Source: an uncultured Thermogutta sp.
GTDB taxonomy: Bacteria; Planctomycetota; Planctomycetia; Pirellulales; Thermoguttaceae
Assembly: GCA_937128505.1 (NCBI GenBank)
Contig: CAKZMM010000130.1
Location: forward strand, 1 to 56,590
DNA length: 56,590 nt
Direction: 5' to 3'
Part shown: positions 22,351-40,377 of the stretch, in pieces
Numbering within the stretch: position 1 is the first letter of the stretch
How the letters are laid out: each line of letters begins with the position of its first letter
The notes under the pieces: generated by a model
What the model was told of the DNA's origin: nothing
Database searches by the model: none
What the model saw: the letters and a program-made list of their open reading frames with translations, nothing else
Position numbers and translations under genes: made by a program

Positions 22351-24627
22351 ATGATTAGCTTTACTCGGCCTGAGATCCTCTGGGCATTGCCCATTGCCCT
22401 TCTGCCGGTATTGATCCATCTGATCAACCGTCTGCGATACCGCCGGGTTCCTTGGGCTGCCATGGAGTTTTTGTTAGAGAGTCATCGTCGGTATAAGGTC
22501 CGGATCCGCCTGCGCGAATGGTTCTTGCTTTTGGCCCGGGTGACGGCGATTGCCTTGATCGTGCTGCTTTTGGCTCAGCCGTTGATTCAAGCCGGTTGGG
22601 CTCCGTGGTTGGCCGACTCGAGCAGGGACCATGTGATTCTTCTGGATGACAGCTTCTCGATGTCGGAGTTGGCTCCCGATCAATCTCCGTTCGAGTTGGC
22701 CCGACAGTCGATGGTGGATTTTTTACACTGGGTCTCCGGCCGTGGTAGCCCCCGGCGAGTGGCTTTGATCCGTTTCTCAAAGGCGGCCCAAACGGATGGC
22801 TTTCGGCCTGATTGGACCGGGCAGACTATTTCCGGGGAATCTTTGGCCCAGTATGTGGAGCAAGTGTCGAGGCTTGCCGTTTCTTACTCAGACGCAGGAC
22901 CACTACCGGCAGTGGAACGGGCCGTGGAGTGGGTAGAAAGCAACGACAGTATTCAGCCATTCATTTACATTTTTTCGGATTTTCGGCTCAAAGATTGGGA
23001 GAACCACCAACCCTTGCGATCTCGGCTGGCTCAGCTGCAAAGGGCTGGGGCAAAAATTCGGCTAATTCGTTGCGCTGAAGATGAGGGTGATAATTTGGCC
23101 ATTCAGGCTGTCACGGCCGGTGGCAGCTTAAAGGCAGCAGGGGTTCCCCTTCCGGTCGAATTGAGCGTGGTCAATTACTCGCAGCAGCCGGTGGAAAAGG
23201 TGGCGGTATCGATTGCTGCGAACGAAACGCCCTTGCCCGCCGTTTTGTTGCCTCGGATTGCAGCGTTTGAATCTGCCCAAGAGCGCAGTCATTTATGGCT
23301 GGCTTCGGCTGGGGAATATCGATTTGTGGTTCAATTGCCGCCGGATCGACTTGCGGCCGACAACGTGCGCTATGTGGTGCTTCGGGTCGCGGAAGCAGTG
23401 CGAGTGCTTTTGGTGGAGGATATGCCGGGGACCCCGAACGCTCGATATATTGAAGCGGCCTTGCGTCCGACGCGGACGGTGGAAACGGGGATCCGCGTGC
23501 GGTTGAGGACCTCGCGGGAGCTTGCGCCTGCGTTGCTCGAGGAATCGGAGGTAGTCTTCTTGCTGGATGTGGAGCGGTTGGAGCCCTCGGCGGTTCAGGC
23601 CTTGAAGGATTATGTTGGAGTCGGCGGAGGGCTGGTCTACTTTGTGGGAGAGCAGGTTAACGCCCCCTTTTACACGGAGACGCTTTACGAGAATAGTCGC
23701 GGGCTATTTCCCGCCCCTTTGGGTACACCGCGCGATTTGCCCCCTGATTTCTTGAGCAATCTACCCGATGTGCAAGTGGGGGATCACCCGATCTTTCGCG
23801 TCTTTCAGGGGGCACGCAACAGCTTTTTGGCCATGGTGAATGTGGATCGCTACTTTACAGTAGCCGAGGGCTGGAGCCCTGAGGAATCAGGGGCCCAAGT
23901 GCTTGCTCGGCTGCGGAACGGGGCACCGTGGGTAATTTACCGTCCCTGGGGCGAAGGAGTGGTGGTTGCGTTTCTCACGACGGCGGCTCCCGTGTGGAAT
24001 AATTGGGCCCGAGGCAACCCAAGTTTCGTAATCACCTTGCTCGAGCTGGTATCGGCGGTAGCGCGGAAAAGTAGGGAAATCCCTGAACTCATCGTGGGTC
24101 AGCCGTTTGTGTGGCGGTTGGAGCGGGACAGATACCGGCCGCAGCTCCGTTACCGGCTTCCGGACCAAGGTGGCACGGTAGCCGGTGCCCTTGAGGCTAC
24201 CGCAGGTGATGGGGGGGCACTCGAGGTGAAGGTGCCCCCACCGATGGAGCCGGGATTTGGCACGCTGGAGCTGACCGACATTCAGGGGGAAACGCAGGAG
24301 CATCTTTTTGCGGTCAATGTCAATCCTCAAGAAGGGGACTTGCGGCTGATTGGTACCCGGGAGCTTTCGGAAAAATTGGCCGGCTTAGATTGTGAGATTC
24401 TTTCAGCACGAGCGATTCGGACGCTGGAAGAACCGGAGGGGAGTGCGGATTTGGTAGGCCCCTTCTTGATGGCCCTCTTGGTTCTGCTCATGGCGGAACA
24501 ATCGCTGGCTTATTGGGCGAGCTATCACTCTCGGCAAAAGACGGCCCACAGATACAGCCGGCAAGAGGCTAAACACGTGGAGAAGCCGACGGCTGCGCTT
24601 CCGCTTGGAAGTGCACCGCGCGTTTAA
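22351..24627 (+). CDS. BatA-like von Willebrand A membrane protein
   Basis: A protein of 758 residues that opens a ten-gene run. The N terminus is the BatA aerotolerance-type domain: a membrane segment at 9-25 (ILWALPIALLPVLIHLI), a basic loop, and a second at 58-80. The VWA domain begins at once with VILLDDSFSM; Asp99, Ser101 and Ser103 form the metal-binding MIDAS. Residues 350-480 resemble a glutamine-amidotransferase-like region found in these planctomycete and Bacteroidetes proteins (VLLVEDMPGTPNARYIEAAL, DYVGVGGGLVYFVG). A last membrane helix lies near 707-730. The VWA region should face the periplasm and bind partner proteins through a metal. GTGAGGA lies directly against the ATG, closer than normal. 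Confidence 0.9.
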   Translation: MISFTRPEILWALPIALLPVLIHLINRLRYRRVPWAAMEFLLESHRRYKVRIRLREWFLLLARVTAIALIVLLLAQPLIQAGWAPWLADSSRDHVILLDDSFSMSELAPDQSPFELARQSMVDFLHWVSGRGSPRRVALIRFSKAAQTDGFRPDWTGQTISGESLAQYVEQVSRLAVSYSDAGPLPAVERAVEWVESNDSIQPFIYIFSDFRLKDWENHQPLRSRLAQLQRAGAKIRLIRCAEDEGDNLAIQAVTAGGSLKAAGVPLPVELSVVNYSQQPVEKVAVSIAANETPLPAVLLPRIAAFESAQERSHLWLASAGEYRFVVQLPPDRLAADNVRYVVLRVAEAVRVLLVEDMPGTPNARYIEAALRPTRTVETGIRVRLRTSRELAPALLEESEVVFLLDVERLEPSAVQALKDYVGVGGGLVYFVGEQVNAPFYTETLYENSRGLFPAPLGTPRDLPPDFLSNLPDVQVGDHPIFRVFQGARNSFLAMVNVDRYFTVAEGWSPEESGAQVLARLRNGAPWVIYRPWGEGVVVAFLTTAAPVWNNWARGNPSFVITLLELVSAVARKSREIPELIVGQPFVWRLERDRYRPQLRYRLPDQGGTVAGALEATAGDGGALEVKVPPPMEPGFGTLELTDIQGETQEHLFAVNVNPQEGDLRLIGTRELSEKLAGLDCEILSARAIRTLEEPEGSADLVGPFLMALLVLLMAEQSLAYWASYHSRQKTAHRYSRQEAKHVEKPTAALPLGSAPRV

Positions 24628-24756: not shown

Positions 24757-27753
24757 GTGGTGCACGAAGTCTTCGAATGGGGAAGGCTAAACGAACCGTG
24801 GACGATCATCGCGGGAATGGTCCTCGGTTTGGGGGTGCTTGCTTTGGCCGCCAGCTTCGCTCGGCGGGAGGCCGCACAGCAAAGCAGCCTTCGTATGCTT
24901 CTGTTATGGACGCTGCGAGGCCTTTCAATCGCAGCCTTAATCATCTGGCTTTTGCAGCCGCAGTGGCGAATACATCGTGAGCAGGTACGGCCGAGTAAAG
25001 TTCTGTTATTGGTTGACACAAGTGCCAGTATGGCGCTTCCGGTGGAAGTAGGTTCGATACGGGGCAGTGGGCCGGGGAGTGAAACAGGGGGTCGAGTTGG
25101 TGTCGTCGGGGTACCTTCCCGCCTGGAGGCAGTGATTCAGAACCTTCAAGGCTCGCAACTTGTTGAGCAGCTATCCGGCACTCACGAGGTGCTAATTTAT
25201 CAATTTGGCGAATCGAGTCCCCGGTTGGTGGGAATGGTGAGCCGGCGGGGATCTCACGAATTTAATTCTGGCGACTCTGGGGGGAATGCATATTCTTTAG
25301 GGTATGATGATGCTGCGGATAATGGCAGCTCTGGGAGAATTGTAGATCCGGCGAAGGAAAAAGCCTCGGGAGGAGATGAAGAGTCTGCGCGAAATGGCAA
25401 GGATGTGCGCGGTTTTGGATCGCCGCCTGGGGAAGCGGAGCGTTGGTGGGAGCAATTGCAACCGATGGGTCGTGAGACCCGGTTGGCCGAGGCCATTACT
25501 GAGACATTACGGGCAGTGGCCGGGGATCCGGTTGCCGGGGTCATTGTTTGCAGCGACGGGGGGCAAAATGCCGGGCAGCCGGTGGCAGTTGCCATTCAAG
25601 CTGCCCGAGAGGCCCGCACGCCCATTTATACGATTGGCGTCGGGCCGAAAGGCCCGCTGGTGGATGCTCGCATAGCGGAGCTGCAAGTGCCACGCCAAGC
25701 GCAGCCCGCCGACCCGTTCCAGGTGGTCGTGCTTGTGCAAGGAAATGGGTTGGGAGGAGCAAAGGGTTTGCTTGAAGTAGGGCTTAAGCCGGAGACTAGC
25801 CCGGAGACTCAACACACCCCCACGGCCCCCTCAAGAAATGGATTAAATGCTGATTTGCCCGCAGCTCCTTCTTCCGCAGGTGAGTTTGGCGATAATGCTT
25901 CAAATACCTCTCGGAGAGACCCTACGGATAACACAGGGAGCACTTCTGCGAACGCTTCCGCAAATGATTCGGCTAATATCCCTTTGGAAACCGCGGGGAA
26001 TACACCGGCAAATGACTCCGGCGAAAACTCGGCGAATAACTTCGCAAGCGTGCCGGCAGGCTCGTCGGGTGAAACTGCGCGTGAGACCGGAGGTTTTCCC
26101 GGCGGTCTGCTCCAGGTTCAGCGTACAGAGGTGGGGTTTTCCAACGAGGGGGGACCGGTTTCGGCCACGTTCGAATTCAACGTCTCCACCCCGGGCCGGT
26201 ATCGTGTGGTTGCTCGATTGCAGGCTCAGCCGCGGGAACAAGATGTGAGTAATAATGTGGCGGAAATGTCCTTGGAAGTTTTGGAGCGGGAAACTCGTGT
26301 GTTGCTTTTGGCGGGGGGGCCGAGTCGGGAATATCAGTTCTTACGGGGCGTGCTTTACCGCGAGCCACGAATACGGTGCGATATCTTGCTTCAATCGGCG
26401 CAACCGGGTACCTCGCAGGAGGCGAATGCTTTGCTGGAAAAATTTCCGGAGTCGCCCGGCGAGTTGGCAGCGTACGATTGTGTCATTGGGATTGATCCGG
26501 ATTGGGGGCGACTACGTCTTTCGGCGGAATCGACTAGCCGAGCTTTGGAGGCGCTGCAGAGCTGGGTGGCCGAGCAAGCTGGCGGGTTGATTGTGGTTGC
26601 CGGCCCGGTTTGTGCGGGGGATACGGTGCGTGGTTGGTTGAGGGAACCGGTGACCGCAAAAATCCGCGAACTTTACCCTGTGGAACTCTTGGACCGGCAA
26701 GGGCTCACGATCACGCGGATGCATCATTCGGAGGAACCGTGGCCCATCGAGTTTACTCGAGAGGGTTTAGCGGCTACCTATCTTTGGCTTGAGCCCAGCG
26801 GCGCCGCCAGTCAGGCGGCTTGGTCGGCATTTCCCGGGGTGTATAGCTGTTTTCCGGCAAGGGGGCTCAAACCGGCGGCTTTGGCGTTAGCTTATTTTAC
26901 AGATCCCCAGACTTTTGAAGGCGATAAACGCCTTATTTTATTGGCTGAACAATTTTTCGGTGCCGGGCGTGTTTTCTATCTTGGCAGTGGCGAATTGTGG
27001 CGGCTCCGCAGCGTCAAGGAAGGATATTTCGAGCGGCTTTACCTACAACTAATCCGCCATGTGTCGCAGGGGCGGGCGGCACGGCAATCGCCCCGGGGAC
27101 TCCTTTTGGTTGATCGCGAAAAGTACTTTTGGGGTGATCCCGTGACCATTCACGCCCAAATCGCCGATAGCCAATTGCGTCCTTTCTCGGCCAGCGACTA
27201 TCCGATCGAGGTGATGGAACCAGATGGCAGACTCCGCACTCTGAGGATGGCGGCGGAGCCGGGCCGGGCGGGAGCCTTCCGCGGCACGTTTACCGTCTTG
27301 AAGCTGGGAACCTACCGAATAGTGTCGGAGCTGCCTGATGCGCCGGGCGAAAAGCTGCTCCGGGAAATTCATGTTGAGTTGCCTCAGTTGGAGAATCAAC
27401 AACTCCTTTGCAATGAGGAGCTTCTTCGCACTTTGAGCGATGCCACCGGGGGGCGATATTACGGGGACTGGTCAGAGATTGATGATAAAAATTCCGCCGG
27501 CTTTTTGCCGCGGCTTTTGCCGGATGGGAGTCGGGTGGAGACGATTGTTGGCCCGGCGTACCAACCTTCGTTCCGACGATGTTTGGAGCTACTATTCGGA
27601 CAAAGCACGTGGTTTAGTTGGATCGCGGTGGTAGCCGCCTGGTGGCCATGGCGAGCGCTTACCGATTTGTCGCTGGCCTGGTGGCTTTTCGGGATGGCGG
27701 CGATGCCGCTACTGGTGCAGTGGACCTTGCGTCGGCTTTGGCAATTAGCTTAG
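24757..27753 (+). CDS. Large membrane protein with VWA and amidotransferase-like domains
   Basis: A protein of 998 residues starting at GTG 24757, with AAAGGAG 12 bases upstream. Two N-terminal membrane helices (15-35, 47-67) are followed by VLLLVDTSASM, a full MIDAS at Asp87, Ser89 and Ser91. Residues about 344-446 form a low-complexity Asn/Ser/Thr/Ala linker that interrupts the fold. An amidotransferase-like region follows (VLLLAGGPSREYQFLRGVL, VIGIDPDWG, GGLIVVAGP), then a beta-rich part and two C-terminal helices near 950-990. It is a larger relative of the preceding protein, and both probably sit together in the membrane facing the periplasm. Confidence 0.88.
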   Translation: MVHEVFEWGRLNEPWTIIAGMVLGLGVLALAASFARREAAQQSSLRMLLLWTLRGLSIAALIIWLLQPQWRIHREQVRPSKVLLLVDTSASMALPVEVGSIRGSGPGSETGGRVGVVGVPSRLEAVIQNLQGSQLVEQLSGTHEVLIYQFGESSPRLVGMVSRRGSHEFNSGDSGGNAYSLGYDDAADNGSSGRIVDPAKEKASGGDEESARNGKDVRGFGSPPGEAERWWEQLQPMGRETRLAEAITETLRAVAGDPVAGVIVCSDGGQNAGQPVAVAIQAAREARTPIYTIGVGPKGPLVDARIAELQVPRQAQPADPFQVVVLVQGNGLGGAKGLLEVGLKPETSPETQHTPTAPSRNGLNADLPAAPSSAGEFGDNASNTSRRDPTDNTGSTSANASANDSANIPLETAGNTPANDSGENSANNFASVPAGSSGETARETGGFPGGLLQVQRTEVGFSNEGGPVSATFEFNVSTPGRYRVVARLQAQPREQDVSNNVAEMSLEVLERETRVLLLAGGPSREYQFLRGVLYREPRIRCDILLQSAQPGTSQEANALLEKFPESPGELAAYDCVIGIDPDWGRLRLSAESTSRALEALQSWVAEQAGGLIVVAGPVCAGDTVRGWLREPVTAKIRELYPVELLDRQGLTITRMHHSEEPWPIEFTREGLAATYLWLEPSGAASQAAWSAFPGVYSCFPARGLKPAALALAYFTDPQTFEGDKRLILLAEQFFGAGRVFYLGSGELWRLRSVKEGYFERLYLQLIRHVSQGRAARQSPRGLLLVDREKYFWGDPVTIHAQIADSQLRPFSASDYPIEVMEPDGRLRTLRMAAEPGRAGAFRGTFTVLKLGTYRIVSELPDAPGEKLLREIHVELPQLENQQLLCNEELLRTLSDATGGRYYGDWSEIDDKNSAGFLPRLLPDGSRVETIVGPAYQPSFRRCLELLFGQSTWFSWIAVVAAWWPWRALTDLSLAWWLFGMAAMPLLVQWTLRRLWQLA

Positions 27754-27801: not shown

Positions 27802-30603
27802 ATGAATGCATCGTCAAAGGCAACTTGGAGTATGCCGGATTCTATCACCGTCTCAATGAAGACTTCCGCCGAAGCTGCACCGCCGGAATACACCGCGGCA
27901 CTTAAAGCAATTAAGGGGCGGCTTTCGCTTTTGCGATGGACCATTCGCGCTTATTTGCTCGGACAGAGCCTTCTCGGTTTTTGTATTTTGGCGGGGGGCT
28001 TTTTCTGGATCAGTCTTCTGCTGGATCGGCAGTTTCATTTTTCGCGGGAAATACGCGCAGTTTTGCTCATGGTGGCAGCCGCGGCGGGGGTGGCGGCACT
28101 TTGGCGATGGACGTTGCGGCTGGTTTTTCGGCAACTTTGGGACCGGCAAATGGCCTTGGTTTTTGAGCGGAGCTATCCGAAACTCAAAGAGGCGCTTTTG
28201 ACGGCAGTGGAGCTTGCCGTACATCGTGCGACACCGGGCGAAAATGGGCGTCCTACAGGCGTGTATTATGAGCAGCTATTGCGGCGGACCATCGACCTGG
28301 CTACCCAGTTTTTGCCGGAGTTGACTTTGCGCAAAATCTTTCGGCTTGCTCCGCTTGCACGGATTGGCGGGCTGGCGTTGGTGGCGATCGGCTCATGGGC
28401 AGCCGCTGCGCAGGTTTGGCCTGCGGATTACGCCATTTGGACAAAACGGTGGTTCGGGCTAAAGGAAATTCCGTGGCCCACGCAGACCGGCCTTGTGCTC
28501 CAAGGGTTTTACCGCGGTAAAGCACTCGTGGCTAAGGGAGAAACCGCGGAGATTCGTGCGGCGGTTGATACCACGATGCCACTTGTGCCGAGGAATGTGC
28601 GCGTTCGTTTTTGGGGCCCTGCGGGGGTGGTTCGCCGGGCTATGATGATCCGCGAGGGACTGGCCCCCTCGGCTACCACACAATTTCAAAGATTTTATTG
28701 GAGCGTGGGACCGCTTTTGGATCCGGTTGAGTTGGAGATCACCGGCGGCGATCGAACGATACGCGGTCTGAAAGTGGAGGTGGTCGATCGCCCGCTTTTG
28801 ACGGAAGTATTGTTGGATTGCATGTTCCCACGGTATATCGGGAAGAGCCCCCAGCGACTCCCGCTGCGGGGTTCCGTAGAAGTGGCGCAGGGCTCTCAAT
28901 TAGTATTGATAGCTCGGGCCAACAAGCAGTTAGTATGGGTGGAGATTGATCGCGGCAAGGAGCGATTGGAAATCACGGATGAATTCTGGCGGCAAGTAAT
29001 CGAGATTCAGAAGTCGCAGGAAGCGGTATTCGAGCGGTATCTGCAAGGGGAGTCGCCACAAAAGCTCGTCAATCTTCAGGCAGAAATTGCTCGGCGGTTG
29101 GGGGACTTGCGAAAGCCGAATGAGGGCTCGATCTCGGGTATGCAAAACACGCGGTCGGCTGAAAGGGTTGACCGAAATCAATTCGTTCGAACTCCGGGGG
29201 ATGCTGTTTATTGGCATCATCTTGCGAAAGCGGGCGAGCGTGCGGAGCAGTTGTCGAAGGTCCTCGGAGGAGATCCGCTTGCTGTGGAAAGCGAGATTGA
29301 CCGGGGGGGCGAATCCGAGATATTCCCGGTGATTCAGCTCTCCACCTTGCCGAGTGACGGCGGAGCGCTGCGGCCGGTCGCGGTCGCTTACTCCTTTTGC
29401 GAAATCTTGGGTTATTTAGAACATGCGGCGGAACTTCGGGCCGAAGAGGCAGGCTTTACCGAATTTCGATGCGACTTAGGGGTGCTTGAGGAGCCGGTTG
29501 AACTTGCCGTGACCATTCAGGACGTACATAGGATCCAGGGCGCGGAGCCGGCACGGTTAGTGATTAGCCCGCGGGCGGATGCACCGCCGAAATTGGCCGT
29601 GGAGCTTCGAGGGATCGGGTCGGTGATTAGCCCCCAAGCGAAAGTCCGTTTTGTGGGCCAGGTTGAGGATGATTACGGCATTCGGGAGGTGTGGTTGGAA
29701 AGTGCGAAGGATGCCGGGCCTGAACGGCGGAAACAGCTTGCCGGCTTTAGCCAGCCCCTGGAACGGTATGAGTTAGAAAGTTCTTTCGAGGTAGCGGAAT
29801 TGGACGCCACTCCGGGAGAGAAGTTGACTTTGAAACTGCTTGCCTCGGATTTTTGCGATCTGAGAGAGGAGATCAATCGGGGGTCGACACCGCCGTGGAT
29901 TCTCGAGGTTGTCACGCCTGAACAATTGCGATTGGCGTTGGAACGTCAAGAACTTTTGCTGCGGCAGCAATTAGATCAAATCGTTCGCGAATTGGAGCAA
30001 ACCCGCGATCTCTGGGCAGGTTTGAGCGAGGAGATTTCGCGGGTGGAGACGCCTCCTTCGCAAACCGAGCAATCCGACGGGGCAGGTGGCGAAACGAGTG
30101 CCACTGCCCCGAGGAATCCAGCGGATATGGATCAGTCGGCAATCCGACGCACTAAGGATCGCGTGCTGCAAAATTTGGAAAAATCCGCTCAGGAGACCCA
30201 AGCGATCGTCGGCGCGGTGGATCATCTATGTGAACAGATAGTGAACAATCGTTTGGAAGCCTCCGCATGGCTTGAGCGGCTTCAAACGCGGGTCCGGCCG
30301 CCGTTAGAACGGGCTTTGAGCGAAGCACTGCCTCAGGCGAAGCAAGCGGCGGAGGGCTTGAGCCAAAACTTAAGCGAGGACCGGCAGCGACTTCGAGAGG
30401 CCCATCGGGAGGGTTTGCAGGCGCAGCAGCAGGCTATTGCTCTACTGCTTCAGTCCCGGCAAGCCATGTTGGAATTGGAAGATTTGAAACGGGTGCTCGA
30501 GGTTCTTCGCGCCGTGATAGAATCGCAGGAACAATTGCTCGATGCGACGCGGGAAAGACAGCGACAGCGGCTTCGCGAGCTTTTTGGGGAAAGACCGCGA
30601 TGA
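27802..30603 (+). CDS. Large membrane protein with C-terminal coiled coils (DUF4175-like layout)
   Basis: A protein of 933 residues, 48 bases after the previous gene. Three N-terminal membrane helices are visible: YLLGQSLLGFCILAGGFFWI, VLLMVAAAAGVAALWRW and IGGLALVAIGSWAAA. A long, probably periplasmic beta-rich region follows. The last 250 residues are Glu/Gln/Arg-rich coiled coil (LERQELLLRQQLDQIVREL, EDRQRLREAHREGLQAQQQ). The layout resembles the DUF4175 proteins of other phyla, though I cannot confirm the family by eye. The ATG at 27802 is the first of several; an ATG at 27835 is also possible. A scaffold role for the VWA proteins upstream is inference. Confidence 0.8.
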   Translation: MNASSKATWSMPDSITVSMKTSAEAAPPEYTAALKAIKGRLSLLRWTIRAYLLGQSLLGFCILAGGFFWISLLLDRQFHFSREIRAVLLMVAAAAGVAALWRWTLRLVFRQLWDRQMALVFERSYPKLKEALLTAVELAVHRATPGENGRPTGVYYEQLLRRTIDLATQFLPELTLRKIFRLAPLARIGGLALVAIGSWAAAAQVWPADYAIWTKRWFGLKEIPWPTQTGLVLQGFYRGKALVAKGETAEIRAAVDTTMPLVPRNVRVRFWGPAGVVRRAMMIREGLAPSATTQFQRFYWSVGPLLDPVELEITGGDRTIRGLKVEVVDRPLLTEVLLDCMFPRYIGKSPQRLPLRGSVEVAQGSQLVLIARANKQLVWVEIDRGKERLEITDEFWRQVIEIQKSQEAVFERYLQGESPQKLVNLQAEIARRLGDLRKPNEGSISGMQNTRSAERVDRNQFVRTPGDAVYWHHLAKAGERAEQLSKVLGGDPLAVESEIDRGGESEIFPVIQLSTLPSDGGALRPVAVAYSFCEILGYLEHAAELRAEEAGFTEFRCDLGVLEEPVELAVTIQDVHRIQGAEPARLVISPRADAPPKLAVELRGIGSVISPQAKVRFVGQVEDDYGIREVWLESAKDAGPERRKQLAGFSQPLERYELESSFEVAELDATPGEKLTLKLLASDFCDLREEINRGSTPPWILEVVTPEQLRLALERQELLLRQQLDQIVRELEQTRDLWAGLSEEISRVETPPSQTEQSDGAGGETSATAPRNPADMDQSAIRRTKDRVLQNLEKSAQETQAIVGAVDHLCEQIVNNRLEASAWLERLQTRVRPPLERALSEALPQAKQAAEGLSQNLSEDRQRLREAHREGLQAQQQAIALLLQSRQAMLELEDLKRVLEVLRAVIESQEQLLDATRERQRQRLRELFGERPR

Positions 30604-30758: not shown

Positions 30759-32549
30759 ATGGCGAGGGTACCGGGGCCCTTAACTTGGTTTGCACGGATT
30801 TTCCTGCTTTTGGTGGGGGTGGCGGCTATCGATCGCTCGAACGTGCAGGCGGCAGTTTTTTATCAGGCGGAGGGTCCAGGGCAAGATTCCGCGGGTCAGG
30901 CCGATCTAGAAGGCGAAGAAAAGACGGGGGGCGACCAGAACGCGGCGGAAACCGCTGGGCGAAGGGCGGCGGATGGTGCGGCTTCTGAGCGGATAGGCTC
31001 CTCCCCGGAGGTCCTCCCCCAACGGCAACGGCAGGTGGCAGAATCGTTCGAGCAATTTCAAGCGATGCTTCTTCGCCTGTCGGAACTGAGCGAGGTCACC
31101 GATCCGCGACGGGCAGCGATGTTTCGGCGAGCAGTTCGGCAAGCGGAAGATCGGGCTTTGGCCGGCCGGCTCATGGAAGCTGCCGAAATGCTTTCCTCGG
31201 GTCGCCTGCAAGCGGCCGCCGAGGAGCAGCAACGCATCATCGACGAGTTGCGAGCTCTTTTGAACTTGCTTCTTTCCGAGGATCGGGAGCGCTTGCTCCG
31301 CGCGGAAAAACAGCGTCTGGAGGCGATTGCCCGGGAAGTGGGCGAGCTTCTCCGCCGGCAGAAGGACCTCCAAGCGAGGACCGCTCTTCCGGCGCAAGCT
31401 TCGGCTCCTTTGGAGCGTCAACAGCACCAGTTGGCTGAGGACACCGGGCGGTTAATCGATCAACTTGGCGGCCGCAGTAGAACGCAAGAAGGGAGCCCCT
31501 CTGCCGAATCACCCGGGGGAAAAGCGACCGACCCGATGGGCGGCTCGGAAGTCCCGGTGCCGGGGCAACCTGGCGAGCAGGCGCTTGAATCGTTGCCGGA
31601 GGATTTCGGCCAGCGCTCTCCGGGTGAGAATCAACCCAGCTCATCTCCAGGCGGTTTGCCCGCGGGAAGCGAAGGCTCAGTGCCTTCAAGCGAGGCGTTA
31701 GGATCCCCGGATAACTCCGCTTTAGAAAGCTCGACGCCAAGCGACGAACTGCGGCAGAGACTCGAAGCGGCACGAAAACGGATGCTGGAGGCGGAAAAAC
31801 GCTTGGCTGAAGCCAAGCGCGAGGGAGCTATCGCCGAGCAGGAAGAAGCCATCCGCGAGCTGGAAGCAGCGAAGGCAGAACTCGAGCGAATTTTAAGGCA
31901 ATATCGGCAAGAAGAGTTGGGGCGACTGCTGGCAAATCTCGAAACGCGATTTCGTCGAATGCTGGGGATGCAGCAGGCGGTGTATAATGAAACGGTACGG
32001 CTTGCGGGCATCGAGCCTACAAAGCGCACGCGAGAGGATGAGCTGGCTTTGAGCCGTTTAGGTCGCCAACAATCGTCGATCGGCCTGGAAGCCACGCAGG
32101 CCTTGGCACTGCTGCGGGAAGATGCGACGGCGGCCTCCATGATCGAAGCCGTGGAGCAGCTTGTAAGCGATATCGGGTGGGTGGAAAAGCTCTTCGCGGA
32201 GGGTAACTTGGGGCCGCTCAATCAGGCTACGCAGCAGGCCATCATTGCTGCGCTTAAGGAGCTCTTGCAGGCCTTGGAAGAAGCTCAACTTGCTCTCGAG
32301 AGCGCGGAGCAATCCTCCGGGGGAGAGGGAATGGCCGGCGAACAACCGTTGGTTGATCTGTTGGCGGAACTTCGGATGCTCCGAAATCTTCAAGCCCGAA
32401 TCTACCAGCGGACCCAGCAATTGGGAGAGTGGGCTCGGGAGGCCCCCCGCATCGATGAGCGCTTGATGGAGGCTTTTCAAGATTTGGCCCAGCGGCAGGA
32501 GCGGCTCCATCGAATTGCGCGGGAGCTTGGTGCGAGGATTCAGCCATGA
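30759..32549 (+). CDS. Secreted coiled-coil protein
   Basis: A protein of 596 residues with a signal peptide (LTWFARIFLLLVGVAAI) and a cleavage region near VQAA. Almost all the mature chain is charged helix rich in Glu, Gln, Arg and Leu, typical of long coiled coils (AEKRLAEAKREGAIAEQEEA). A Ser/Pro/Gly-rich linker near residues 240-320 breaks it in two. GGGGAGAG precedes the ATG. Its stop codon overlaps the next start in ATGA, so the two are translationally coupled. No enzymatic motif is seen; probably a periplasmic structural or adaptor protein. Confidence 0.8.
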   Translation: MARVPGPLTWFARIFLLLVGVAAIDRSNVQAAVFYQAEGPGQDSAGQADLEGEEKTGGDQNAAETAGRRAADGAASERIGSSPEVLPQRQRQVAESFEQFQAMLLRLSELSEVTDPRRAAMFRRAVRQAEDRALAGRLMEAAEMLSSGRLQAAAEEQQRIIDELRALLNLLLSEDRERLLRAEKQRLEAIAREVGELLRRQKDLQARTALPAQASAPLERQQHQLAEDTGRLIDQLGGRSRTQEGSPSAESPGGKATDPMGGSEVPVPGQPGEQALESLPEDFGQRSPGENQPSSSPGGLPAGSEGSVPSSEALGSPDNSALESSTPSDELRQRLEAARKRMLEAEKRLAEAKREGAIAEQEEAIRELEAAKAELERILRQYRQEELGRLLANLETRFRRMLGMQQAVYNETVRLAGIEPTKRTREDELALSRLGRQQSSIGLEATQALALLREDATAASMIEAVEQLVSDIGWVEKLFAEGNLGPLNQATQQAIIAALKELLQALEEAQLALESAEQSSGGEGMAGEQPLVDLLAELRMLRNLQARIYQRTQQLGEWAREAPRIDERLMEAFQDLAQRQERLHRIARELGARIQP

Positions 32550-33604
32550 ATTTTATAGGCGGGTTAATCTTGGCTGCACCATTTGCGGGTCTTATAGCCT
32601 GGCAAGGTGCGGCACCTTCCTCTGGGTCGCTGAATTCATTAGAGCTTGCTTTGCGAGAGTATTTCGCCGCGAACTCGGAGAACAAAAGTACGGATCAAGA
32701 GCTCGACGCTAGCCCGCGAACTGTGCCAGCATTGTCGGACGAAAGCGCGCAAGGGGTGTGGCTTATTACAGCCGAGAGTGAAGAAGATCGCTTAAGTGAG
32801 TTTATCCGCCGGTTTTGCGAGATGGATCCGCGGGGTCAATCGTTACTGCGGTTGTGGAACGGAAAGTGGGCCCCGGGCCAGGTTGCTACGATTCCCTGGT
32901 TAAATGAGGATGAGTTGCCCCGCTTGGTTTGCAGTCAGTTACGCCTAGCCCATGGTCGGTGGCTTATCGAGGGGCGACTTTACGATGAAGCCCGGGCAAT
33001 TCTTGAGGATTTAAGGCCCGAGGAAGTGATCGCCCCCAAGACGCTTCTTTTCTGTCAAGCGATAGTGTATCACCAACTTTTGGAAGCGGATCTGGCCCGA
33101 AAAACCGCGGAAGAGTTGCTCAAACAAAGTCGGGACGGACCGGCTCGGTACCGCGTTTTGGCGGAGATGATCTGTGCGGATTGGGCGCGTTTTGAGGCGG
33201 GGAGTCTAAACGATATTTCGCGGCAAATGGGGGATGTGGCTCGACGGCTGGAATTGGGAAAAGCCGATCAGGAGGTTTTGGCACGGGAAGAGCGAATCCT
33301 TGAGGCCCTCGATAAATTGATCAGAGAGGCGGAAAAACGGGCTCAGAAGCTGCGGGGTGCTTCTGCCGGAGGAGCCACGCAATCATCATCCCCGGCCCCA
33401 GATAGTCTTCCTTTGGGCGGTAAAGGCCGCGGAGAAGTCACCGCGCGACCCGTGGGGAGTTCCCGGGGTTGGGGCGATTTACCGCCGAAAGAGCGAGATG
33501 AGATCTTGCAGAGTTTGGGTCGCGAATTTCCGCCTCATTATCGAGAGGTGGTGGAGCAGTACTTTCGCCGCTTGGCCGAAGAAAGTGAATCGACTCGCGA
33601 ATAA
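32546..33604 (+). CDS. Exported helical protein, possibly TPR-like
   Basis: A protein of 352 residues, overlapping the previous gene by four bases. The N terminus is a signal-like segment (FIGGLILAAPFAGLIAW). The middle is all-helical with a TPR-like rhythm (RLYDEARAILEDLRPEEV, HQLLEADLARKTAEELLKQ). The C terminus has a short linker and then a conserved-looking PPKERDEILQSLGREFPPHY block of the type that closes many planctomycete exported helical proteins. No catalytic residue pattern is seen. Being coupled to the coiled-coil protein, it probably acts with it. Confidence 0.75.
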   Translation: MNFIGGLILAAPFAGLIAWQGAAPSSGSLNSLELALREYFAANSENKSTDQELDASPRTVPALSDESAQGVWLITAESEEDRLSEFIRRFCEMDPRGQSLLRLWNGKWAPGQVATIPWLNEDELPRLVCSQLRLAHGRWLIEGRLYDEARAILEDLRPEEVIAPKTLLFCQAIVYHQLLEADLARKTAEELLKQSRDGPARYRVLAEMICADWARFEAGSLNDISRQMGDVARRLELGKADQEVLAREERILEALDKLIREAEKRAQKLRGASAGGATQSSSPAPDSLPLGGKGRGEVTARPVGSSRGWGDLPPKERDEILQSLGREFPPHYREVVEQYFRRLAEESESTRE

Positions 33605-33815: not shown

Positions 33816-35072
33816 GTGGAGATTCCTGTGTTCGGTCAATGGCTTGAGCTTTTGATCGGGGTCAGCTTTCTTGTGGCGGGGGAACCGCCGCAGCCGCTGC
33901 CCGGGGTTGAGGTGGAGCGAGTCAACCGCTCCCGTATCGTAGGCCAGTGGTTGGGGCTAGAAGAGGATGCAATCGTTTTGCGTGCAGAGTCGGCCGAAGA
34001 GTGCCGCGTCCCGCTTGAGGAGGTGGTCCGAATCCGCTTTTTCCCGTTGGCATCGGGTCCAACTTCCCCGGTGGCGGCAGGGGCGGTTTGGATCAATCTT
34101 ACGGATGGTTCTCGGATTGTTGCCCGGGCTTTGGACCCCGGCGGATCCAAAGAAGAAGTCGTTTTGCGGGGGCTTGTGGGATCTTGGGATCTTCTGAAAG
34201 TGCCGTTGGCAAGTATCGCCGCCATTCAGTTCCGCGAGCTTTCACCGCGGCAATCCGCGCAGTGGCAAGCACTCCTGGAGCAGGTGAGCGAAGCGGATCG
34301 TGTGGTGGTGGCTCAGGGGGATAACTTGGACTATTACCCGGGGGTCGTCGAGGGGGTGAGTAGCCGGGGGATCCTTTTTGCTATCGAGGGGGAGCGATTG
34401 GAGCTGGGGCGAGAAAAAATCGTGGGGGTGGTTTTGTATCGTGCGAGTGGTGCGGGCGGATCGCGGGGAATAGGTCGCATCGTAGATCGATTTGGGTGCC
34501 GATGGGTGGCCAGTAGCCTGGAGATGCACCAGGGCAAACTCCGGTGGAAGACGCCGTATGGTTTGGTCGTGGATCAACCGCCGGAAGATCTGATTGAGAT
34601 TGACTTCGCTGCGGAGCGGGTCGTCTATTTGGGTCAATTGCCGGCCGAGGTTCTGGAGGTGACGCCGGGGCTCAGTGTGGGCGAGTTGGATCGCATTTTG
34701 GCCGAGTTTTATCGACCCCAGGTGGATCGCGGTTTCGGCGGCGAGCCTCTGAAGCTGGGAGGGACTACCTACAAGCACGGTGTGGCCATGCGAAGTCGAA
34801 CTCGGGTGGTTTACCAGTTGCCGGCAGGGGCGCAACGATTCCAAGCGTGGGTGGGGATTGACGACCGCTGCCGGCCGGGGGGCCAGGTGAAGCTCTCCAT
34901 CCGGACGGAGCATGGAAACCTTTGGGAAGGGGTGATCTCGGGAAGCGAGCCGGAACAGTTTCTGGATCTTCAACTCGGGGGAGCGTCCCGGTTGGAAATC
35001 TTCGTCGATTTTGCGGGCTCGCAAATCCTAGGTGGTCATATTAACTTCTGTGAGGCTCGGGTAATTCGATGA
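33816..35072 (+). CDS. Exported protein with C-terminal NPCBM-like domain
   Basis: A protein of 418 residues from a GTG at 33816. A short hydrophobic segment (WLELLIGVSFLVAG) suggests export. Residues 25-130 contain repeated small beta units (EVERVNRSRIVGQWLGLEED, RIVARALDP). The last 150 residues match the NPCBM pattern, a carbohydrate-binding jelly roll: LKLGGTTYKHGVAMRSRTRV, then AWVGIDDRC and a terminal LGGHINFCEARVI. NPCBM domains bind glycans or accompany glycosidases, so a peptidoglycan or polysaccharide ligand is plausible. Its stop overlaps the next start in ATGA. Confidence 0.82.
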   Translation: MEIPVFGQWLELLIGVSFLVAGEPPQPLPGVEVERVNRSRIVGQWLGLEEDAIVLRAESAEECRVPLEEVVRIRFFPLASGPTSPVAAGAVWINLTDGSRIVARALDPGGSKEEVVLRGLVGSWDLLKVPLASIAAIQFRELSPRQSAQWQALLEQVSEADRVVVAQGDNLDYYPGVVEGVSSRGILFAIEGERLELGREKIVGVVLYRASGAGGSRGIGRIVDRFGCRWVASSLEMHQGKLRWKTPYGLVVDQPPEDLIEIDFAAERVVYLGQLPAEVLEVTPGLSVGELDRILAEFYRPQVDRGFGGEPLKLGGTTYKHGVAMRSRTRVVYQLPAGAQRFQAWVGIDDRCRPGGQVKLSIRTEHGNLWEGVISGSEPEQFLDLQLGGASRLEIFVDFAGSQILGGHINFCEARVIR

Positions 35073-37153
35073 AGCTAGCCCACGGCCATCGGCGATTGGA
35101 TGCTGAAACTGGGGTACGGAGAACCCTTCTGGGACAGGTGCCTTTTTTCATCGTCGCCGTAACCTTTTTTTGTTTTCTTGCTTTCTGCTTGTTCGGTATC
35201 TTGTACGGTTTTGAGCGGACCGTGGACGCAAGCGAGGAGATGCATCGGTCGGCCTCGGCCGAGTGGTCACACATCGCCCTGAACTCAGGTTTGCGTGCGG
35301 CGGAGGGAACCGGAGTCCAGGAAAATCCGAATTTGCGGGGCTATGGCTCCCCAGCGGCGGAGCTGTTGCCCACGCCAGATTCCCGGCTTTTGGCGGCACA
35401 AGCGGCACGGATCAAACTCATCGAAAAGCTTACGAGGTGTGTCGTAGCCATATTTTCTTATTCGGGAAGCGAGGGAGGTTCTGGGGTTCTCATTTCGCCG
35501 GACGGGCTTGCGCTAACCAACTTCCATGTCGCCAAACCTTGCGGATTGGCCATGAAGTGTGGACTGCCGGACGGAAAGCTTTACGACGCCATAACCGTCG
35601 GTTGGGATCCTACCGGGGACATCGCTCTGATTAAGCTGCTGGGCCGCACGGATTTTCCTTATGCGCTTTTGGGGGATAGCGACGAAGTGCGGGTGGGTGA
35701 TGAAGTCTTCGTCATGGGAAATCCGTTCATGTTGGCCATGGATTTGCAACCGACAGTTACCTGGGGAATTATCTCGGGCACGCATCGCTATCAGCATCCT
35801 GCGGGAACCATTTTAGAGTACACGGACTGTTTACAGACGGATGCGTCGATCAACCCGGGCAATTCCGGCGGGCCGATGTTCGATTGTCGCGGAAGGTTAA
35901 TCGGCGTCAACGGTCGGGCATCGTTCGATCGTCGAGGCCGGGTAAACGTCGGGGTGGGCTATGCCGTATCGATCAACCAGGTGAAGAACTTTCTGGGGCA
36001 TTTGAAAGGCGGACGTATCGTGGATCATGCGACCTTGGGTGCCCAAGTGAATTTCGATCAGGAAGGTCGTGTGGTGGTCAGCAATATCGTGGAGCATTGC
36101 GACGCCTGGCGGCGGGGGCTGCGGATGGATGACGAGCTGGTGAGCTTTGCGGGGCGTCCGATTCGTTCGCCGAATGAGTTCAAGAACCTCCTGGGGATTT
36201 ATCCGGCGGGGTGGCGTGTGCCGCTAAGCTTTCGGCGGCAGGGGACGCGGTTCGATATTCTGGTGCGGCTCGAACCGCTCCATTCGGAAGCGGAACTGCT
36301 GGAGAAGACCGAACGGTTCTTCATGGATCCTCCGCGGCCAGAGATGCCGATTCCGCAGCCGGGTCCACAAGGCGTCGATGCACCGAATGTGCAGGAAAGC
36401 GAAAATGCGGATCCCCCCGAGGCCCCCGAAGGAAATACTCGCGAACGAAAGTCGGTGGATAACCGGCAGGAGCCGGCTCCCGGGGCTTTATTGCCGCAAG
36501 GAACCGACGCGGCCGCGGCTCTTCCCAAGGTAGTGCGTCCTTATTACGAAGCGAAGAGAGGGTTCGCGAATTTTTATTTCAACCGGTTGCATCAGCGGGG
36601 GGTGTGGCAGCCGTGGCGAGATTCTCTGGGGAGTTGGGGTGAAGCTGCCGAGTGGCATTTTCGGGGGCAAACCGAGGGAGGAGTTGCTTTTGAAATGCGC
36701 GTGGATGATCGATCGGCCCGTTTGAAACTGCCGCAATTGGAGCACATTTGGGAAAGCTCAAGGACGGAGACATTCCACTGGCAGCCGCCTCAGCCGGCGG
36801 GTTTGTTGCTGTGCCTGTATTTATGGCGACAACTGGCGATGAATCCGCCGGAGCGATTTCCTGGGCTTTATTATTGGGGAGTCGAACCTTTATGGGGCGA
36901 GGGACCTTCGGCGGACGTGTTGGCGGCGGTTTTCGGTCCGGGTGAGTGCCGGTGGATCTTTCAGGGGAACATGTTAGCCGGTATGGAACTAGGCGCTGAT
37001 CCGGCGAAAGATCCATGGGAAGTACGCTTTTTAGGGGAGCAGCGAATTGGTGACGGCATCTTCCCTGCGGTCATTGAAGTGCGTTGGGGAGATTTCATTT
37101 TCGAAAGGCTGAAGCTCGAAGGCGTGGTGGAAGGTTCGCCCTCAAATCCGTAG
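35069..37153 (+). CDS. Membrane-anchored HtrA-like serine protease with PDZ domain (active triad)
   Basis: A protein of 694 residues, coupled to the previous gene by a four-base overlap. A membrane anchor at about 25-46 (PFFIVAVTFFCFLAFCLFGI) is followed by the S1C protease domain at 120-320. The triad is complete: His153 in LTNFHV, Asp184 in TGDIALIKL and Ser266 in NPGNSGGP. One PDZ domain follows (GRVVVSNIVEHCDAWRRGLR), then a Pro/Glu-rich linker and a C-terminal domain of about 200 residues with no match I recognise. It should cleave misfolded or specific proteins in the periplasm. The extra C-terminal domain is unusual for HtrA and may bind the neighbouring proteins. Confidence 0.92.
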   Translation: MKLAHGHRRLDAETGVRRTLLGQVPFFIVAVTFFCFLAFCLFGILYGFERTVDASEEMHRSASAEWSHIALNSGLRAAEGTGVQENPNLRGYGSPAAELLPTPDSRLLAAQAARIKLIEKLTRCVVAIFSYSGSEGGSGVLISPDGLALTNFHVAKPCGLAMKCGLPDGKLYDAITVGWDPTGDIALIKLLGRTDFPYALLGDSDEVRVGDEVFVMGNPFMLAMDLQPTVTWGIISGTHRYQHPAGTILEYTDCLQTDASINPGNSGGPMFDCRGRLIGVNGRASFDRRGRVNVGVGYAVSINQVKNFLGHLKGGRIVDHATLGAQVNFDQEGRVVVSNIVEHCDAWRRGLRMDDELVSFAGRPIRSPNEFKNLLGIYPAGWRVPLSFRRQGTRFDILVRLEPLHSEAELLEKTERFFMDPPRPEMPIPQPGPQGVDAPNVQESENADPPEAPEGNTRERKSVDNRQEPAPGALLPQGTDAAAALPKVVRPYYEAKRGFANFYFNRLHQRGVWQPWRDSLGSWGEAAEWHFRGQTEGGVAFEMRVDDRSARLKLPQLEHIWESSRTETFHWQPPQPAGLLLCLYLWRQLAMNPPERFPGLYYWGVEPLWGEGPSADVLAAVFGPGECRWIFQGNMLAGMELGADPAKDPWEVRFLGEQRIGDGIFPAVIEVRWGDFIFERLKLEGVVEGSPSNP

Positions 37154-37262
37154 GCTCTTGCCGTATCATTGAGGGGAGTTCGGAGCCTTTCATGAATCGC
37201 AACTTTGATGCGAGTTGGGGCGGGAACTTTTGAACTTTGAGCGAGAGAGGAAATTGCGTTTC

Positions 37263-38336
37263 GTGGAAATCTTGAGTCATCGGATAGTGACGATCATTGC
37301 CGTTTTTGTGGGCATGAGCATAGCGGCGATTCCCGGAATCCGTTCCGAGACGGGAGATACCCCCGGTCAAACCTCGGAATCATTGGGAGGCGTGTTGGAC
37401 ACCGCGCTCAGTCGGGTGGTCAAAATCACAGGGGCGGGTGGGTACCGGGGATTGGAGCCATATCAAACGGGCATACTGATTTCCTCGCAAGGGCACGTCT
37501 TGACGGCGTGGAGCCACGTCCTTCAGTCCGAAAGCGTCACGGTCACCTTAGCAGACGGACGACGCGAACAAGCCGAATTGATTGCGGCCAACCTCGCCTT
37601 TGAGGCAGCAATCCTCAAGCTGCCTCGGCCTACAGCGGCATGGTTTGAGCTTGGCGAAAGTGACGAGGTTTTGCCGGTGACCCGGGTCTTTGCGCTTAGT
37701 AATGCCTTCGCGGTAGCGGTCGGTAACGAGCCGGTGAGTGTCCAGCGGGGATTTGTAAGCGCGGTCACCCAGATCGAGGGGGGACGAGGGATCCTCGATT
37801 TGATGTACCGAGGCCGGGCTTACATTCTCGATTTTGTAAGTGGCAATCCCGGTGCAGCTGGGGGTGCGTTGGTGGATAGTTCTGGTCGGCTGATCGGTAT
37901 GCTGGGAAAGCCTTTGCAAAACCGCCTCAACGGGGCCTGGATCAATTACGCCATCCCTACGACGGTACTTCGTCCTTGGGTCCAACAGGTATTGGCGGGC
38001 AAGGGCAAACCGGTTGAGACAGATGACCGGCTAAAGCCCTCCACTGCGTCGCGCGCGTGGAGCCTTGAGCAATTGGGAATAATCCTGGTGCCGGAAATTG
38101 CGCCGGAAACTCCCGCTTATGTGGATCGTTTACCAGCGAATAGCCCTGCACGAATGGCCGGATTGATGCCGGACGATTTGATTGTTCTGATCAATGGTCG
38201 GGTCGTTCGATCGGTGCGGGAAGTGCGAGAATTCCTAACCGAGTGCCCCTCCACGGTTTCGGTGGTTTTGGGTGTGGATCGGGGAGGGGAATTGGTGGAG
38301 ATCACGATTGAACCTGCGATGGTCAGTAGCCTGTAG
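37263..38336 (+). CDS. HtrA-like pseudoprotease with PDZ domain
   Basis: About 357 residues from the GTG at 37263, which has GAGAGAGG upstream and leads into a signal peptide (IVTIIAVFVGMSIAAIPG); the frame is open to a TTG at 37215. The protease fold is recognisable from GILISSQGHVLTAWSHV onward. His85 remains, but the Asp position reads FEAAILKL and the catalytic Ser block reads GNPGAAGGALVD, with Ala198 replacing Ser. Hydrolysis by the normal mechanism is therefore not expected. A C-terminal PDZ domain is intact (DRLPANSPARMAGLMPDDL). It probably binds or regulates, perhaps as a partner of the upstream active protease. Confidence 0.88.
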   Translation: MEILSHRIVTIIAVFVGMSIAAIPGIRSETGDTPGQTSESLGGVLDTALSRVVKITGAGGYRGLEPYQTGILISSQGHVLTAWSHVLQSESVTVTLADGRREQAELIAANLAFEAAILKLPRPTAAWFELGESDEVLPVTRVFALSNAFAVAVGNEPVSVQRGFVSAVTQIEGGRGILDLMYRGRAYILDFVSGNPGAAGGALVDSSGRLIGMLGKPLQNRLNGAWINYAIPTTVLRPWVQQVLAGKGKPVETDDRLKPSTASRAWSLEQLGIILVPEIAPETPAYVDRLPANSPARMAGLMPDDLIVLINGRVVRSVREVREFLTECPSTVSVVLGVDRGGELVEITIEPAMVSSL

Positions 38337-38740
38337 GGTACCGGGATCCCATGTCAAGTGATCGCTTCGGATTCTGAATCGCGAAGATTGAATGAACTTC
38401 GAAATTCCGTGCAAGGGATGAACTGCGGGTTTCCCTTCGGTGCCAGAAACCCAATGAAGCCGCGCCTTGTGCGCCCGGGGCTTGCCGCGGTGCAAGCGAT
38501 GAATTTGGGACCAAGTCCGCCGGTTAATAGATCTATGAAGAATGAAACTTTTATTCGTTTGCCGTAATGTTTGCTGGAAAGCTGTTGCTTTTAACGTGTT
38601 GCTTTTTTGATCCTCAACCTCGTTTTCCCACAGCGGTTTTTATGGATTTGCTCACGCGGTGGCATAACTGAAACATTTGTTACGTTGCAGGATGCGGGAA
38701 ACATTAAGCCATTGAAGCATATTCAAGCGGGGGGGATCCG
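38337..38740. other. Spacer inside the protease group
   Basis: No gene or repeat I can support. It is the longest gap in the 22.3-40.4 kb run, so a separate promoter for the last two genes is possible. Confidence 0.4.
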
Positions 38741-40060
38741 TTGCACTTATACTGCTGGGCTGTAAGACAAGCGACCAATCGCTTTTGCGGCTATCCTCGC
38801 TCTTCCCAAGTTTTGGGCGGCAAGGACTTGGGTGGGTGGTGGTCCGGAATCAACCTGCTTAAAGCCTGGAGGCGGTTTGTGCTCCTGATTGCGTGGCTTC
38901 TGGCGAGCTGGCCAGTAGAAATTTGTACAGATATTTGCCTTTCGGATTTTATTTCGAGGCAAGCATGCGCTTTCGTATTACAGGAGGCCTCTACCGGGCA
39001 GGAGACAGATGGCATTTTCGGTGGGTCCGCCAGCGGGCAATCCCCTGCAATAAGCGAGTATCGAGGGGTTGGCGATCTGGCTTCCGCTGAGCAGGCGGCT
39101 ATCTTGGGGGCATTGCAGCGGATACAACCTTCGGTGGTGCGGATTGAAACGGTTGGCCGGGCAAGCGCCGGTGCGCGAACTGCTTTGGCAGGGGGGGTGG
39201 GGACGGGGGTAGTCGTCTCACCTGATGGGCTGATCGTAGCCAGCGTGTTCCATTTTTTGAATCGCCCGCAATCGATTCTTGTACGGCTTGCTTCCGGCGA
39301 ACGGGTCTCGGCGCAGTTGGTCGGCCGGGATTACAATCGGATGCTTGCGTTGCTAAAAGTACCGTCAAATCGCCCGCTTTCGGTGCCGGAGGGGGTACCG
39401 CCTGACGACGTGCAGGTGGGAATGTGGACCATTGCCGTCGGTTGGACGTGGGACGATGTGCGGCCGCATGCGGCAGTGGGCATTCTCAGTGCAAAAAACA
39501 GGATTTGGGGCAAGGCAATTCAAACGGATGCCGCGGTATCCCCGCACAACTACGGGGGGCCATTGATCGATTTGTGGGGACGTATCCTCGGAGTTCTCGT
39601 GCCGTTTTCGCCCGATGGGCGTGACCCCCTCGCGGGCGTGGAGTGGTATGATTCGGGGATTGGGTTCGCTGTACCTTGGGATCAAGTGTTGCAATCTGTG
39701 GAACGGCTGCGTGAAGGGGAGGATTTGTTTGCCGCGGCGCTGGGAATTGGGTTTGGTGAGGGGAATCCGATCCTAGCCCCGCCGATCGTGGGCACAGTTG
39801 CCGCTAATAGCGCGGCTGCGCGGGCGGGTTTACTTGCCGGGGATCGCATCGTGGCTGTGGACCGAAAGTTGGTGGAACGACTTTCGGAATTGTGGCAGCT
39901 CTTGGCCCAACGTTACGCGGGACAGGAAGTGACCCTTACCATCGAACGAACGGGAAAGCGTTGGGAGGCAACAGTAGTGCTCGACCGAGTGCCGGTCCCC
40001 ACGAGCGTGCCGGGGTTGACGGCAGAAGCTCCTGAGCGCGGTGCGGGAGGCGGACCGTGA
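38741..40060 (+). CDS. Second HtrA-like pseudoprotease with PDZ domain
   Basis: Up to 439 residues from a TTG at 38741; the true start may be further in, since the signal-anchor segment (FVLLIAWLLASW) begins only at residue 46. The S1C fold runs from GVGTGVVVSPDG. His171 is present (SVFHFL), but the Asp position reads NRMLALLKV, with Met201, and the Ser position reads SPHNYGGPLID, with Tyr271. Two of three catalytic residues are lost and the oxyanion Gly is replaced by His. A PDZ domain follows (GTVAANSAAARAGLLAGDRI). The lesions differ from those in the upstream pseudoprotease, so the losses look independent. Its stop overlaps the next start in GTGA. Confidence 0.87.
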   Translation: MHLYCWAVRQATNRFCGYPRSSQVLGGKDLGGWWSGINLLKAWRRFVLLIAWLLASWPVEICTDICLSDFISRQACAFVLQEASTGQETDGIFGGSASGQSPAISEYRGVGDLASAEQAAILGALQRIQPSVVRIETVGRASAGARTALAGGVGTGVVVSPDGLIVASVFHFLNRPQSILVRLASGERVSAQLVGRDYNRMLALLKVPSNRPLSVPEGVPPDDVQVGMWTIAVGWTWDDVRPHAAVGILSAKNRIWGKAIQTDAAVSPHNYGGPLIDLWGRILGVLVPFSPDGRDPLAGVEWYDSGIGFAVPWDQVLQSVERLREGEDLFAAALGIGFGEGNPILAPPIVGTVAANSAAARAGLLAGDRIVAVDRKLVERLSELWQLLAQRYAGQEVTLTIERTGKRWEATVVLDRVPVPTSVPGLTAEAPERGAGGGP

Positions 40061-40377
40061 CGGTAAAGCGACATGCCATAGGCGTCGTAGCCCTTATCCT
40101 TTTAGCCGTGGGGGGATGGCTTACTGTGTTTCCCAGCGAGTGGGCGGGCGGCCAATCGCTGCGGGCGGCCTCCTTGCGATTAGGCCCATTTTTGGTGGTC
40201 TTGTGGCTGGCCTTCCCCCAATTGGCGAGATTACCGGCGTGGCTTCTGAGCACGGTGCCTGTATTGGTATTGCTGCTTGCCTTTCGACCCCGGTGGTTTT
40301 TTATTGCGCTACCCGTGGTATTAGCTCTTGCAATTTTGCGGCCCCGGAGTAGTACTCGCAGGGGAAACTCGGGTTAA
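40057..40377 (+). CDS. Small membrane protein
   Basis: A protein of 106 residues from a GTG overlapping the previous gene by four bases, so it is translationally coupled. Four hydrophobic stretches fill most of it (GVVALILLAVGGWLTVF, LRLGPFLVVLWLAFPQL, WLLSTVPVLVLLLAF, FFIALPVVLALAIL), with a basic C-terminal tail. No family is recognised. It may anchor the protease-like proteins or serve as a small membrane subunit; that is inference from position only. Confidence 0.72.
   Translation: MTVKRHAIGVVALILLAVGGWLTVFPSEWAGGQSLRAASLRLGPFLVVLWLAFPQLARLPAWLLSTVPVLVLLLAFRPRWFFIALPVVLALAILRPRSSTRRGNSG

Follow-up and report, generated by a model that had tools for sequence, protein, structure and literature searches.

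Three consecutive plus-strand genes, here H1, H2 and H3, encode one HtrA-like protease with an intact catalytic triad and two relatives that have lost it, in a window of 56,590 nucleotides (the whole stretch of DNA analyzed) from an uncultured Thermogutta sp. Judged from sequence, the trio is real and conserved, and it has not been described as far as the literature searched reaches. The explanation that we favor, and consider probable, is an HtrA-type system of the envelope with one catalytic subunit (H1) and two dedicated non-catalytic subunits (H2 and H3).

H1 (35069..37153, 694 aa) comprises an N-terminal hydrophobic stretch, a PDZ domain, a Pro-rich linker and a C-terminal domain of unknown family, while H2 (37215..38336, 373 aa) and H3 (38741..40060, 439 aa, a short form of this protein) are pseudoproteases with a PDZ domain; direct reading of the sequence found an N-terminal hydrophobic stretch in H2 and H3 as well. 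The initial annotation had proposed three S1C folds with PDZ domains in a row, and this held: Trypsin_2 scored above the Pfam cut-off (27.6 bits) in H1, H2 and H3 (107.7, 69.0 and 64.7 bits), PDZ was above its cut-off in H2 and H3, and for H1, where the PDZ_2 match of 22.1 bits was below the cut-off of 27, a phmmer alignment of residues 137-402 with DegP 88-355 included PDZ1. In the PDB, H1, H2 and H3 each had DegP or DegQ as the best sequence match, and Trypsin_2 and PDZ were the only families found in a Pfam scan of H2 and H3. Alignment with DegP and DegQ placed the catalytic-site residues of all three proteins as they had first been described. The triad of H1 is intact, with His153 (codon 35525..35527), Asp184 (35618..35620) and Ser266 in the motif GNSGG (35864..35866), all codons being placed from ORF-start numbering. 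H2 has His101, Glu130 at the Asp site and Ala215 at the Ser site (GAAGG, 37857..37859), and H3 has His171, Met201 and Tyr271 (HNYGG, 39551..39553) at the corresponding positions, so that both fail the His-Asp-Ser test for an active S1C protease and only H1 is classed as a protease. A signal-sensing cascade had also been suggested for the trio; a proteolytic cascade is not supported, a triad being present in only one member. Triad loss as a common trait of the Trypsin_2 paralogues of this genome was ruled out: the genome has 14 Trypsin_2 matches, three of which are the trio, and His-Asp-Ser is kept in all 10 readable copies of the other 11, the copy on contig C33 not having been recovered and standing outside the count of 10.

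The same residues were followed in class-level rows from 40 loci near the best matches and 40 hand-chosen from a draw of 148 genomes of the class, with the window counted and five low-scoring ORFs left out before the triads were scored. His-Asp-Ser occurred in H1 in 71 of the 71 rows covering all three sites (two further rows cover Ser only), and a complete triad occurred in none of 75 H2 rows (72 ORFs and 3 fused halves) and in none of 72 H3 rows, one more H3 row being without cover of the sites. The Ser site of H2 was Ala in 59 rows, Gly in 4, Pro in 3, Ser in 3, Gln in 2, His in 2, Thr in 1 and Cys in 1, and that of H3 was Tyr in 71 rows and Val in 1. At the His site H2 and H3 each show 10 residue types, and the Asp sites are also widely variable. 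The earlier statement that the inactive genes keep the His is correct for the window but does not hold as a family feature, since His is rare at this site in both families (17/75 H2 rows and 3/72 H3 rows); it was rejected as a functional mark, and the retained His residues of the window's H2 and H3 are, on these alignments, incidental.

A draw of 149 genomes from the phylum was searched with an H2 profile, and the scores showed a gap from 175.9 down to 133.4 bits. Above this gap were 18 genomes from outside the class, and all 18 loci hold H1, H2 and H3, with the H1 triad intact in 18/18, Tyr at the Ser site of H3 in 18/18 and a complete triad in none of the 16 H2 genes that are separate ORFs; intact triads were thus found in neither H2 nor H3 of relatives, within the class or beyond it (0/18 for H3 outside). 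An aromatic replacement at the Ser site is found in the H2 family as well as in H3, with Tyr in 4/16 and Phe in 2/16 of the H2 genes outside the class (L234, L236, L239 and L241 among them). In a scan of named genomes, 77 titles among the 80 listed of 574 confirmed places name a planctomycete group, as counted by eye. One trio locus (L299) is titled Candidatus Nealsonbacteria, and the title is probably wrong.

It is very improbable that H2 or H3 is catalytic through other residues, i.e. through a migrated nucleophile or through the Cys found in fused genes of one genus. Such activity could be read from the Cys that 12 of the 15 fused ORFs described below have at the Ser site, from some H2 rows that retain His and Asp together, and from the 3/75 H2 rows with Ser, all three of which are without the His. 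Against it are the number of residue types at the His site of both families and the Gly at chymotrypsin position 193 (of GNSGG), which is kept in 1/72 H3 rows in the motif list and gone from 71/72; a non-Gly residue at this position has been argued to block the oxyanion hole in MamO (PMC4794232). In H2 this Gly is mostly kept in the listed motifs.

Missing catalytic residues could also mark H2 and H3 as decaying duplicates of H1, i.e. pseudogenes, but we assign this reading almost no probability. The frames are long and open in the class and beyond, the Tyr of H3 is fixed, and dN/dS was low in the inactive copies and in H1 alike. Values were 0.023-0.159 for H1, 0.034-0.138 for H2 and 0.042-0.160 for H3 (0.02-0.16 in all), as estimated by the Nei-Gojobori method with our own script for 19 genome pairs whose dS was below 1.2 in each of the three genes; these were drawn from pairs with H1 identity over 0.72, share genomes and so are not independent, and come entirely from relatives other than the window's genus pair (G001/G002). 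On a tree of 85 rows, constructed without two generic copies (C33, not recovered, and C32, with no hit), H1, H2 and H3 each formed one group with 99-100% bootstrap support and long branches, and 11 generic HtrA rows were positioned beside H3. Three separate, well-supported groups show that the dead members are old lineages, not recent copies, and H2 and H3 as recent tandem copies of H1 were ruled out on this ground. Pseudogene decay was rejected on the triad rows in the class and beyond, the dN/dS values and the tree, and selection for non-catalytic roles of H2 and H3, as the initial annotation had proposed in place of decay, is strongly supported by these comparisons.

H3 differs in length among relatives. 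Many have a form of ~650-730 aa with a second PDZ domain and an alpha/beta-hydrolase-like end (e.g. L061, L072 and L081), and the short form, without either, is that of the window and of G001 and G002 from the same genus. Pfam hydrolase matches to the hydrolase-like end were below the cut-off, and a model of the long form had a pLDDT of 87.2 and a pTM of 0.77. The putative nucleophile column of this end is Ser in 3/55, in an uncertain alignment, and the end is perhaps a second dead enzyme in one chain. The extra C-terminal domain of H1 (36479-37150) had a significant Pfam match in none of the five proteins scanned, and its best PDB profile match, to LolB, was not significant (E 0.061). The best 50 matches in PDB fold searches were HtrA proteases, and those lists were scarcely a test of either the H2 half or the C-terminal domain of H1; a fold search of a viral library, which returned trypsin-like proteases and viral polyproteins, gave no further information.

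The three genes are retained jointly in the class. Among 148 genomes, with cut-offs taken from score gaps (E <= 1e-65 for H1, E <= 1e-45 for H2 and >= 263 bits for H3, the next H3 match beneath being at 220.5 bits), H1 was present in 107, H2 in 108 and H3 in 107; all three genes occurred together in 107, H2 alone in 1 (G053) and none in 40, absences being less sure than presences because full scoring was limited to a subset of each genome's candidates. The H2-like gene of G053 (C196, 12833-13771) scored 200.9 bits and is the sole case of the 148 without H1 or H3 over threshold. The recurrence of the trio in relatives extends to its substitutions, with the Tyr of H3 and the Ala of H2 at the frequencies given above. 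In a set of 40 genomes, comprising the window's and 39 relatives, H2 and H3 searches matched in 40/40 at a threshold that also admits generic HtrA, and a few (e.g. G016, G021 and G022) had generic scores only. The gene order p596-p352-NPCBM-H1-H2-H3 recurs among the loci of relatives, and in a second set of loci the trio lies in one run in 37/40, as scored by eye (exceptions L134, L139 and L162). G059 and G056 retain all three genes, although these lie at distant sites or on separate contigs. The finding that any one gene means all three in nearly every relative examined suggests that the inactive copies function as components of a single protease system; counting against a system of H1, H2 and H3 is that 40/148 class genomes do without it.

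H1 and H2 are fused in several lineages. In a survey of 30 loci of the window's family best matching a fused query, 15 ORFs contained H1 and H2 as a single frame of 873-1066 aa, whose first half has GNSGG and whose second half has an inactive site. Twelve of these, with an H2 half that has Cys in place of the catalytic Ser, come from one genus (g9, within L171-L188), and the other three are from G011, G007 and G211; in the fusion of G010, also of genus g9, the His site of the H2 half is not His. Two genomes outside the class, G314 and G307, also have H1 fused to H2, with Gln and Tyr, respectively, at the Ser site of the H2 half by direct reading. No fusion of H3 was found among the loci examined. 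Alignment A6 was used for the fusions, and alignment A4, in which lone H2 rows were set on the H1 half, was dropped. On an H1 tree of 106 rows, 17 of them fused, from which four rows of cut loci and five long-branched or incomplete rows were left out, the fused/separate label needed 4 changes, and 4 were forced by well-supported branches; an earlier tree of 115 rows, in which cut loci were mislabelled as separate, had given 8 changes with 6 forced. These label changes could be fusions or splits, separate fusions appearing the simpler reading. A model of a natural fusion reached middling overall confidence (pLDDT 76.1, pTM 0.63) and for this reason no interface is predicted, a defined interface being neither supported nor excluded, and DegP was the best Foldseek match of the fusion, as it was of the long H3. 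The initial annotation had suggested a hetero-oligomer, and for H1 and H2 contact is supported by the fusions in several lineages; for H3 the suggestion rests on co-occurrence and synteny, from which H3 may join H1 and H2 in a three-part oligomer.

Fusion, synteny and co-occurrence would also fit proteins of one pathway that never share an oligomer. H2 and H3 could act in the pathway of H1 as independent ligand-binding proteins or chaperones, neither joining nor controlling it, which we consider unlikely though worth keeping in view. A dead protease domain can gain a binding function, as in the di-histidine metal site of MamO (PMC4794232), the trio genes are scattered in some genomes (the two noted above), and the long H3, with its second PDZ domain and hydrolase-like end, could be a separate binding platform, but the H1-H2 fusions in several lineages fit direct contact better. 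Less probable still, H2 and H3 could be decoys or inhibitors that mask clients or cap H1 in the manner of a substrate trap, as opposed to needed subunits. Tyr or Ala in place of the nucleophile could preserve a binding cleft without cleavage, and substrate trapping and competitive inhibition are among the pseudoenzyme modes listed in a review (PMC10211241); joint retention with H1 and 1:1 fusion to it suggest stoichiometric subunits instead, which may raise or lower the activity of H1.

The trio closes a BatA/VWA operon, all on the plus strand. The run is headed by a gene (22351..24627) with a BatA N-terminal domain (PF07584, 60.2 bits) and a VWA match below cut-off, followed by p998 (24757..27753), whose L069 homologue contains a VWA domain, and by the large protein p933 (27802..30603), p596 (30759..32549) and p352 (32546..33604), which are without a Pfam match; these four are assigned to the operon from the Pfam scan and synteny. 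Next is a syntenic NPCBM-domain protein (33816..35072, PF08305, 79.1 bits) with a 4-base overlap with the start of H1. The small hydrophobic protein p106 (40057..40377) overlaps the end of H3 and follows H3 in a number of relatives. With its BatA domain at the head, and with MoxR and DUF58 genes preceding the run in L069, the locus resembles the Bat/MoxR-DUF58-BatA operons, but it differs from them in its HtrA trio, its NPCBM protein and three Pfam-less proteins at the end, and in the window's contig being without a MoxR match (the window's genome has 8 AAA_3 matches, none on this contig). In the operon region of L069, which is from G005, a squalene-hopene-cyclase-like protein (934-1962) precedes MoxR. 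Elsewhere in the window, at 51073-52020 and 54723-55706, are two pilin-like proteins whose N terminus has a prepilin-type motif, a common type in planctomycetes.

Under the preferred explanation, an envelope-exposed system with division of labor, H1 would be the protease, and H2 and H3 would have lost catalysis long ago and been retained as partner subunits that join H1 through their protease-like domains. The PDZ domains of H2 and H3 may bind peptides or client proteins, and the two may keep H1 in an inactive state, activate it or deliver clients to it. The fixed Tyr at the nucleophile position of H3 and the loss of its oxyanion Gly suggest that the dead site could be a structural plug or a docking surface, and the position of the trio at the end of a BatA/VWA operon, which in at least one relative, L069, starts with MoxR and DUF58, suggests that the system may serve the assembly or stress control of envelope proteins. 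We infer the physical complex, the control of H1 by H2 and H3, the class of clients, the location and the role of the Tyr from these patterns. A stronger form of the proposal, that the Planctomycetota have a phylum-wide, obligate hetero-oligomeric HtrA machine in which one catalytic and two fixed dead subunits, one of them plugged by Tyr, form a single protease/chaperone complex coupled to the MoxR/BatA/VWA envelope system, is tentative and somewhat less likely than not.

The protease and PDZ architecture is that of DegP, DegQ, DegS and AlgW (HtrA, MEROPS S1C), which are homo-oligomers of active subunits, whereas H2 and H3 are without the triad and H1 has an extra C-terminal domain. Plant Deg5 and Deg8 likewise bring two different HtrA proteins together, in a hetero-oligomer, but both of these are active proteases. 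The nearest analogue of the trio would be MamE/MamO, which, like the paired active and inactive MamE copies of magnetotactic bacteria, places an active HtrA and a degenerate relative in one gene cluster. MamO is inactive and is required for proteolysis by MamE, though the authors of that work report no detected physical interaction between the two (PMC4794232); the pair is an experimentally tested case in which an active HtrA depends on an inactive one. The non-Gly residue at position 193 is shared with MamO by H3 only. Unlike MamE/MamO, the trio combines one active member with two inactive ones, all three forming old groups of their own within one phylum, is associated with a BatA/VWA operon, has the fixed Tyr of H3 and the H1-H2 fusions, and had no TauE domain matched in the Pfam scan.

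No paper describing the trio was found in the literature searched, as judged by title or opening of abstract among the matches listed, and the main text of an essential-gene paper on Planctopirus limnophila is without mention of HtrA, DegP, PDZ or MoxR (PMC10632474). As far as the literature searched reaches, the active/inactive HtrA pairs in print are those of magnetosome clusters. The pairing reported here is old and widespread in its phylum; it involves two different dead partners, and in one of them a fixed Tyr occupies the nucleophile site. Steering of HtrA enzymes by pseudoproteases becomes testable in culturable planctomycetes, and the trio offers a way into an operon whose proteins are otherwise unassigned, in a phylum whose cell biology is unusual.
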